Source: Candidatus Poribacteria bacterium
Lineage (GTDB): Bacteria; Poribacteria; WGA-4E; WGA-3G
NCBI GenBank assembly: GCA_028820845.1
Contig: JAPPII010000101.1
Location: 151,591 to 215,590 of the forward strand
DNA length: 64,000 bases
Reading direction: 5' to 3'
The notes below the pieces were generated by a model. The model worked only from the letters and a program-made list of their open reading frames with translations. It was not told the DNA's origin and did not search any database. This document shows, piece by piece, positions 10,100-52,424 of this stretch. Positions within the stretch are counted from its first letter, which is position 1. Each line of letters opens with the position of its first letter. A program made the translations under genes and the position numbers.

Positions 10100-10260
10100 C
10101 CTGTTAGGCTGTGCTGCGTATATCTTCTGTAGCATAACCTTTTAGGTTGTGCCTCTATTGTAGCATAGTTTCCTGTTAGGCTGTGCTGCGTATATCTTCT
10201 GTAGCATAACCTTTTAGGTTGTGCCTCTATTGTAGCATAGTTTCCTGTTAGGCTGTGCCT
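10094..10260. repeat. 72-bp tandem hairpin array between convergent genes
   Basis: Two apparently identical 72-bp copies (10100-10171, 10172-10243) and the start of a third. Each copy carries a GCATAACCT-TTT-AGGTTGTGC hairpin and a CCTGTTAGGCTGTGC half hairpin. The array supplies the TAG of the NAPRT gene (10097-10099) and, on the other strand, the TAA of the AAA ATPase gene (10248-10250). Serial stem-loops between converging genes could act as a two-way terminator. A single related hairpin lies at 6187-6211. Confidence 0.85.
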
Positions 10261-50929: not shown

Positions 50930-51643
50930 ATGCAAAGCAAAAAATCACAAGAATCTCAAAAATTACTGGACTCCATAAGAGAAAAATACAACCAAACCGA
51001 TGAGCTTGACCGTCGTAAAGAGGAGGCAGAATACGGTTTGGGAGAGCATGAGCAGGCGTTTGTTGAGAAGTTCCCAGAAGGCAGCCGCCTGCTTGACATC
51101 GGTTGTGCGTCTGGACGGTTATGCCTTGCCCTTGCGAAACTCGGATACGCCGTCACCGGTATAGATGTTGCCGAGAAACAGATAGCACAGGCACAACGGA
51201 TTGCTGAAAAAGAGAGCATTGACATAACATTTCTACATTGCGAACCATCGACACTCCCGTTTCCCGATGCGTCTTTTGCAGCGGCTTTTATGGGGAACGT
51301 CTACTGTTATATCCCACATCGTGCAGCACGGATTGCGTTTTTAGAAGAAGTCGCACGGATACTCTATCCCAAGGGGCAACTGTTTCTGTCTAATTCGGTC
51401 CTTGATGGTCTTGTTGACAGTTACGAGCCAACGTATGATGAGAATTATAACCAATTTGCTTCAAACTATGAGACGTTAGAAAAAGGTGATAATTTTTGGT
51501 TAGAAGAACAACCGATTTACGTGCACTATTTCTTTTCAGATGATCTCAAAGCCGAGTTGGAAGAATCACCATTTCGACTACTCAATTCTTCTGTAGAAAA
51601 TGAGCAAGTTCGGTGTGTGTTGCAGAGGAATGAATTAGGTTAG
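50930..51643 (+). CDS. Class I SAM-dependent methyltransferase
   Basis: 237 residues from ATG 50930 (behind the terminator, so the upstream open frame is not used). RLLDIGCASGRLCLALAKLGY is motif I, VTGIDVAEKQIAQAQRIA is motif II with the acidic residue binding the SAM ribose, and LPFPDASFAAAFMGNVYCYIPH is motif IV. The C-terminus has no clear substrate signature. Belongs to the broad Methyltransf_11/25 group, so the acceptor is unknown. Its last four bases overlap the convergent repeat protein gene. Confidence 0.85.
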   Translation: MQSKKSQESQKLLDSIREKYNQTDELDRRKEEAEYGLGEHEQAFVEKFPEGSRLLDIGCASGRLCLALAKLGYAVTGIDVAEKQIAQAQRIAEKESIDITFLHCEPSTLPFPDASFAAAFMGNVYCYIPHRAARIAFLEEVARILYPKGQLFLSNSVLDGLVDSYEPTYDENYNQFASNYETLEKGDNFWLEEQPIYVHYFFSDDLKAELEESPFRLLNSSVENEQVRCVLQRNELG

Positions 51644-52338
51644 GAAGATAAAACAAAGGTATCCTTGAACTTTCGGAACCATTGAGTAAAAAGCACCACA
51701 GCCTCTGGATCCTGACGTTTCGGTGAAAACTGATAAGTCCCTTCACTTTTTTCATCGTAAGACAGGGCATAGACCCCTCGTGCCTGTCGTCCGCTCGCGA
51801 TAACTCCCCAGGCTTTCCCATGGAGGTATTCATCTGCTACAAAAGGTTTTTTCATGCCCGGAGCGATAGCAATGAGTCCGCACGTATAGGTCGAGCTGAG
51901 TGAAATGACGCCAGCAGAGAACCCGGGACTTATGGAAATTACCCCGCAAGATCCCCAGAGACCTATCGAAATGATGCCACAAGATCCCCAGCAACCAATC
52001 GAAATTACACCACAAGATCCCCATACACCAATGGAAATCACACCACAAGACAAATTTCCAAACGAAATCATTCCTGATGAGATTAATTCGTAACTGATAT
52101 TAGAGAGGCCTAAGGCATGCCAGACGTTTAAGAAACCCGTGATGTCGACTTTTGCCTGATCTAAATACCATGCGATCCCATAAGCGATGAACGGCGAGCT
52201 AACGACAAGCCATAAAATCATAAGGAAGGTTTCATATTTCCGAGCGTACCCGTTGAACGTTCTTCGGAAGATTTCTGCATCAAAGGGATAGTTATGAATT
52301 TCACCAGTTTTTGTCTGTTTTTCTAAGGTTTCTTGCAT
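51640..52338 (-). CDS. Membrane protein with an 11-residue glycine repeat (unknown)
   Basis: 232 residues from ATG 52338, with GGAGGG seven bases upstream. One membrane segment, LMILWLVVSSPFIAYGIAWYL (about 39-59). Then residues about 89-160 consist of repeats of 11, each of the form G-(V/I)-I-S-I-G-x-W-G-S-C, with glycine, isoleucine and cysteine in fixed places. The regular pattern suggests a solenoid or beta-helix rung stack with stacked cysteines. The remaining tail (VIASGRQARGVYALSYDE) looks like a small beta domain. I do not recognise a named family. Encoded by a 33-bp DNA tandem repeat. Confidence 0.7.
   Translation of the reverse strand: MQETLEKQTKTGEIHNYPFDAEIFRRTFNGYARKYETFLMILWLVVSSPFIAYGIAWYLDQAKVDITGFLNVWHALGLSNISYELISSGMISFGNLSCGVISIGVWGSCGVISIGCWGSCGIISIGLWGSCGVISISPGFSAGVISLSSTYTCGLIAIAPGMKKPFVADEYLHGKAWGVIASGRQARGVYALSYDEKSEGTYQFSPKRQDPEAVVLFTQWFRKFKDTFVLSS
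51902..52066. repeat. 33-bp tandem repeat inside the membrane-protein gene
   Basis: Units begin with GAAAT at 51902, 51935, 51968, 52001 and 52034, exactly 33 bases apart, with a shorter last one at 52064. Each encodes one 11-residue rung on the minus strand. Confidence 0.85.
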
Positions 52339-52424
52339 CTGTATTCCCTCCGCCAAACGCCAAAAAAGTATGGGTTATACCCCACTTTTAATCAGCACAA
52401 ACTATAGCCCAAATTTTGCTGCGT

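Follow-up and report, generated by a model that had tools for sequence, protein, structure and literature searches.

The window analyzed here is a stretch of 64,000 nucleotides from a Candidatus Poribacteria genome. On its minus strand lies a gene that the original prediction had described as encoding a membrane protein at 51640-52338. The frame itself was confirmed: it opens with an ATG, and a GGAGG stands 8 bases ahead of it (52347-52351). The features of the gene are as follows.

51640..52338, minus strand: gene of a 232-residue protein, predicted to be a membrane-tethered solenoid (ATG at 52338, stop codon ending at 51640)
52165..52230, minus strand: hydrophobic segment, residues about 37-58 (from hydropathy and flanking charge)
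51859..52074, minus strand: putative glycine-pentad solenoid, residues 89-160, with seven rung starts (from periodicity and charge)
51935..52050, minus strand: 33-bp tandem repeat encoding the well-preserved 11-residue rungs (3.5 copies, 81% matches)
51643..51777, minus strand: conserved C-terminal cap, residues 188-232, with the pattern GxYxLSY...SPxRQDPEAVxLF... (from the alignment and cap-only profiles)

The preserved DNA repeat noticed originally is thus present, and there is one clear hydrophobic segment ahead of the rungs, as had been claimed; it likely forms a single transmembrane helix with the N terminus inside. The rungs start at residues 89, 99, 110, 121, 132, 143, and 154. Within residues 85-160 we counted 34 identities at lag 11, while the best of 10,000 shuffles, at any lag from 2 to 24, reached 23. 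Some details of the first description have to be revised. The rungs had been held to measure exactly 11 residues, which is true of five spacings but not of a sixth, which measures 10. Tryptophan and cysteine had been placed in register in every rung; cysteine is so in five (residues 98, 109, 120, 131, and 153), but tryptophan occurs in three only. The last 45 residues form a non-repetitive tail, in which a low-confidence AlphaFold model places a helix at cap residues 211-225. We would guess that the cap consists of a hairpin and an amphipathic helix.

The gene is closely preceded, on its own strand, by an HNH endonuclease ORF (PF01844; 52484-52873), and such an ORF also adjoins the family gene in L090, L096, L098, and L103. 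In L027 (G048:C158, 1081-1902), the reading frame of an HNH-nuclease-like ORF continues into the solenoid and cap, and the transmembrane part is absent; this is apparently a natural fusion caused by a deletion between neighbors. Elsewhere, the window contains a 72-bp tandem repeat (10100-10258; 2.2 copies, 100% match) with shorter sub-periods inside. Two short ORFs at another locus of the same genome (L085, 1380-1667 and 1464-1691) are the two strands of a single tandem repeat, (PLKII)n / QRDY, and were set aside as low-complexity and unrelated.

A Poribacterial family and its glycine pentad

BLAST matches to the window protein were found in 51 of the 84 genomes of the phylum, and a family profile matched 54, with partial matches in G007, G001, and G002 (the latter two being zinc-ribbon forms, described below). 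Removing duplicates and ORFs shorter than 120 residues left 70 distinct ORFs. Near-duplicates were then removed by hand to give an alignment of 52 rows, in which the window row stands for L003. The family is real and under purifying selection: dN/dS of the window gene is 0.20 against L002, 0.25 against L025, 0.11 against L011, and 0.23 against L019 (a range given as 0.10-0.25), the last two pairs having high synonymous divergence. The solenoid alone gives 0.20 (L002) and 0.17 (L025). Two further open frames, 60-65 residues long, match the C-terminal cap and no other part of the protein (L079, G049:C150 107-241, and G027:C114 39297-39410). These may be gene remnants or free caps.

Across the family the repeat unit is a glycine pentad that occurs in steps of 5, 10, or 11 residues. 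The spacings are mostly 5, 10, and 11, and the glycine autocorrelation, computed on 68 of the 70 members, is 0.53, 0.40, 0.29, 0.26, and 0.21 at lags 5, 10, 15, 20, and 25. At least eight uninterrupted glycine pentads occur in 28 of the 52 members, the longest run having 16; shuffling residues 61-170 of all 52 members gave at most 7 consecutive pentads in 200 rounds. The consensus is G-[IV]-[IVNF]-[AS]-[IFV], and the 11-residue unit of the window protein reads as a pair of pentads plus one extra residue. Clean indels separate some close relatives: L045 and L046 (91% identical) differ by 15 residues, L031 and L029 (89% identical) by 10, and L025 and L007 (73% identical) by 22. The automatic gap list with these three indel sizes also contains many others, which come from weaker pairs or lie outside the repeat. 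The original prediction had asked whether rung number varies between relatives, and it does, L025 being exactly two rungs shorter than L007 and L008.

Neither tryptophan nor cysteine is conserved in the family. Cysteine takes the last position in 32 of 97 11-mers and 24 of 161 10-mers among the 52 aligned members, and it shares this site with V, F, I, and Y, being one of the hydrophobic residues accepted there. In a tree of 51 rows, which leaves out L078, the window protein, L008, and L025 form one clade with support 100/99. Hence, the Trp-Gly-Ser-Cys rungs are a local elaboration. Of the short solenoid with stacked cysteines beside a membrane anchor that had been proposed, the anchored solenoid is supported, but the Trp/Cys stacking is a local decoration.

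The repeat is almost free of charge. In the window protein, residues 85-160 are all uncharged. Among the 28 members whose runs reach eight pentads or more, D, E, K, and R make up 18 of the 1356 residues at the four non-glycine positions. This recount used runs picked by glycine alone, because the 10-/11-residue unit pattern itself forbids charge at positions 1, 3, 4, 5, and 6 and is unfit for charge counts. The wider repeat region, loop included, has a mean charged fraction of 3.8% in 48 of the 52 members, with a maximum of 10% in one of them; a canonical pentapeptide protein of the window's own genome has 20% over 150 residues. K+R is higher in the N-side flank of the first hydrophobic segment in 50 of the 52 members and equal in 2. 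By the positive-inside rule, if there is only one span, the N terminus would be cytoplasmic and the solenoid outside.

The genes were compared in 64 loci with a family member. In 22 of them the member lies between mnmA and miaA, on the same strand and mostly no more than 150 bp from either gene (the distance to miaA is 1.0 kb in L055 and 1.5 kb in L069). Six loci, all of one clade, are among pspA-like genes on the same strand, and five adjoin Gfo/Idh and ABC-like genes, the latter identified by eye. In the window's own subfamily (the window and L090-L109), cstA lies within 1.3 kb in 18 of 21 loci. An M16 peptidase gene lies within 600 bp, on the same strand, in 5 loci, and 6 loci have none of the compared neighbors. 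Pfam models, run on one example each, matched PspA_IM30 (34.2 bits, cut-off 33.9), IPPT, tRNA_Me_trans, GFO_IDH_MocA, CstA, and Peptidase_M16_C. Since these contexts track subfamilies, the gene must have established itself in more than one operon, and its neighbors name no single function. We gave up the idea that it is functionally linked to tRNA modification: in G000 the mnmA and miaA matches are 585 bp apart without a member there, the family members of that genome sitting elsewhere. In G081 they are 1159 bp apart with a member between. A test of co-occurrence with PspA was uninformative because PspA is present in 83 of the 84 genomes.

Relatives with zinc ribbons, helix-turn-helix domains, and kinases

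A profile of the mnmA-miaA group (A4), which covers both the glycine repeat and the cap, matched 63 of 386 genomes, 11 of them outside the phylum. Three of the latter (L129, L133, and L134) were dropped as low-complexity or unrelated repeats. Most of the remaining ones, together with two distant genomes of the phylum, share a common order: an N-terminal zinc ribbon, a motif resembling EWxSKTxxFGxPLVHIAIGR, a solenoid of glycine decads, and the cap. Among nine proteins scanned with Pfam, zinc-ribbon models were over the cut-off in L125, L131, L135, and L136, below it in L124, L126, and L128, and matched none of L127 and L130; in L132 the ribbon was recognized by eye. A profile of the zinc-ribbon forms (A5) matched 69 of the 386 genomes, 18 outside the phylum, with G088 and G278 excluded from the count of outside relatives because they matched in the zinc-ribbon part only. 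The same part alone is covered by the five Acinetobacter and one Pseudanabaena matches that L135 found among plasmids.

Because glycine repeats inflate scores, we made a further profile from nothing but the cap. With this profile 10 of 1463 ORFs matched at E up to 1, and for eight of these E was 0.002 or lower. Such E-values, like those of the zinc-ribbon and N-terminal-motif searches, refer to small ORF sets preselected for a match and not to whole genomes. All ten are solenoid ORFs, seven of them from outside the phylum, and the low-complexity ORFs L129, L133, and L134 were not matched. In the reverse direction, a cap profile matched 50 of the 52 Poribacterial rows over the D..A motif of the cap (i-E 0.0013 or better, on a set preselected in the same way); this is the domain-level count, the full-sequence scores (52/52) including matches to the repeat. 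The best of 1040 shuffled controls reached 8.1 bits.

The N-terminal motif alone leads further. Within its preselected ORF set it matches, among others, L150 (E 1.9e-9), L151 (2.8e-10), and L139 (1.9e-8). L150 has a helix-turn-helix of the XRE/repressor kind, with matches to 3op9 (E 3.5e-8), the P22 C2 repressor, and an Xre regulator, and in L151 there is a PknB-like kinase (E 3.7e-58). L138 is annotated as XRE HTH. Two cases come from Oscillospiraceae plasmids: that of Pusillibacter faecalis is annotated as "XRE family transcriptional regulator" and that of Subdoligranulum variabile is not annotated, and in both the helix-turn-helix part looks short by eye. In L161 (G113:C40, 1-1875), a solenoid with the N-terminal motif leads, again by eye, into a hydrophobic segment and then a long stretch of repeat-like sequence containing CxxC pairs. 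The cap profile matched neither the helix-turn-helix nor the kinase forms, and the N-terminal motif was found in only one of the 52 rows of Poribacterial tethered forms at E up to 0.1 (L009, 0.074); the tethered branch carries its transmembrane helix at the place of the motif. Hence, the chain of homology runs via the zinc-ribbon forms. In several phyla, then, the solenoid domain has a DNA-binding domain, a kinase, or a zinc ribbon next to it, and none of the libraries searched gives it a name.

Possible roles and comparison with known systems

We propose that the window protein belongs to a membrane-tethered, Poribacterial branch of an unnamed bacterial beta-solenoid domain whose place is at the membrane, where it acts as a platform or sensor, a reading to which we give a probability of about one half. 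Its N-terminal helix would hold the chain at the membrane, and the chain would wind into a beta-solenoid whose faces are glycine pentads. Each coil would take up about 20-22 residues, which in the window protein means two of its 11-residue units. The conserved, non-repetitive cap would close the solenoid and could contact a partner. Almost uncharged and presumably rigid, the solenoid may lie against the membrane, or against other copies of the protein, and serve there as a platform or sensor. The N-terminal module would be interchangeable, being an XRE helix-turn-helix, a Hanks-type kinase, or a zinc ribbon in relatives. The beta-solenoid fold, the membrane contact, the sensing, and the partner binding are thus all proposals. 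A match to a characterized family or a prediction of disorder had been named at the outset as grounds for abandoning the solenoid; neither emerged, although the fold was not confirmed either, both AlphaFold predictions having a mean pLDDT of 35, from input alignments of only 2 and 3 rows, with strands at the rungs. The topology predicted for the tethered form suggests that the solenoid is outside the cytoplasm, in conflict with the helix-turn-helix, kinase, and zinc-ribbon forms, which point to a cytoplasmic or membrane-embedded solenoid.

Such an uncharged repeat could also be read as the transmembrane helices of a multi-pass protein. The high hydropathy of the window protein over about 70 residues and the lack of charge over residues 85-160 agree with this, as does the net positive charge of both the N-side flank and the C-terminal tail (K+R 13.8%, D+E 8.4%). 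However, a glycine every five residues keeps to no single face of an alpha-helix, 19-residue hydropathy means over the repeat of the window protein are 0.9-1.7 against 1.9 in the first segment, and the low-confidence models give strands at the rungs, so we consider multiple passes unlikely. Glycine zippers, for comparison, have a period of four. A flat solenoid of the curli-like or ice-binding-like kind, with rungs of 20-22 residues made of two 10/11-residue strands that stack or polymerize at a surface, is suggested by the 10/11-residue half units and by the cysteine ladder of the window clade. Yet the three-pentad indel between L045 and L046 would move the cap to the opposite face, and it therefore argues against a two-sided solenoid and for equivalent faces. 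There is also no significant sequence match to a solved structure over the solenoid, and the helix-turn-helix and kinase fusions of relatives are ill suited to a fiber. We regard this arrangement as rather improbable. It is quite improbable that the gene is a functionless passenger moving between operons. Its presence in only 54 of 84 genomes, its several unrelated contexts, and the mnmA-miaA gaps of G000 (short, its member elsewhere) and G081 (long, with one between) would fit a passenger, but the low dN/dS against four relatives and a cap conserved across phyla do not.

The five-residue period calls to mind the pentapeptide repeat proteins. These form a beta-helix, often with a C-terminal helix, have membrane-linked members such as HglK, and are recognized by at least eight contiguous consensus pentapeptides, as described in an excerpt of PMC8145042. 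Their helix is right-handed and quadrilateral; the mean pLDDT of our two models is 35. A canonical member acting as a DNA-mimic gyrase protector is nonetheless scarcely credible here. The pentad of the family differs from the [S,T,A,V][D,N][L,F][S,T,R][G] of Pentapeptide repeat (PF00805), and this model is absent from the 20 Pfam families matched by the 52 members at E up to 1, although it found the canonical protein of the same genome. Although 28 members have eight or more glycine pentads, the 14 with the longest runs fit the canonical consensus, in the best frame, at only 2.3-2.8 of the 5 positions, against 4.4 of 5 in the genome's own pentapeptide protein, and L/F at the center reaches at most 13%, against 100%. 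Moreover, there is little charge for DNA mimicry. Two related models give some support to a pentapeptide protein. Pentapeptide_2 (PF01469) matches 5 of the 52 members weakly (best E 0.097), and the GLTT repeat (PF01744), a short glycine repeat of five residues, matches 20 of the 52 at E up to 1 (best 2.3e-6). Nevertheless, of 20 members scanned singly only two (L068 and L066) pass its curated cut-off of 21 bits, and the window protein has no GLTT match at E up to 10.

That no family could be assigned originally was confirmed, as no Pfam or NCBIfam model matches the window protein. Profile searches of solved structures gave no convincing match over the solenoid. PHROGs and PADLOC returned no family at E up to 0.01 for five proteins, which gives no indication of a phage or defense origin; viral contigs contained no relative, phage records none for two queries, and plasmids none for the window protein, L057, and L029. 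The open-licence literature searched had nothing on this repeat or on repeat or beta-helix proteins of Poribacteria. The knotted solenoids of PMC13123833 were set aside, being Brevundimonas proteins in the excerpt of that source. Alone, the window protein is a modest ORFan, but the search that starts from it exposes the wider domain. If it had a name, proteins now called hypothetical and regulators with loose names would become one class of possible membrane sensors that can be tested. Its nearly charge-free make-up raises the structural question of where such a solenoid sits, and its fusion partners hint that it may take part in sensing or in assembly at the membrane.

Two systems are worth comparing in this respect. 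YjbI of Caulobacter crescentus is described, in an excerpt of PMC12864828, as a secreted, envelope-bound pentapeptide solenoid with cysteine pairs that regulates envelope stress. Set beside our family by description only, it differs in being a canonical quadrilateral beta-helix at the outer membrane. Toastrack proteins (DUF4097/DUF2154/DUF2807) have a right-handed beta-helix C-terminal to transmembrane domains and are associated with pspA and with regulators of the HTH and LytTR kinds, according to an excerpt of PMC11237479. Membership of the present family is not supported, since none of these three models is among the 20 Pfam families mentioned above. A phmmer search did give a weak match (E 0.071) to 4ygu, a "putative adhesin" that we take to have the Toastrack fold. 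The likeness lies in the pattern of partners, with a pspA operon in 6 of the 64 loci and helix-turn-helix and kinase fusions in relatives; in our family a likely transmembrane segment precedes a repeat that would be a beta-helix. It is possible, and we suggest it tentatively, that the glycine-pentad solenoid is a bacteria-wide domain for signal input or assembly at the membrane, coupled according to lineage to regulators, Hanks-type kinases, zinc ribbons, or a plain anchor. The window protein could then be its anchor-only Poribacterial form, and so a second, independent answer to a problem of the phage-shock system for which Toastrack domains have been proposed as a solution.
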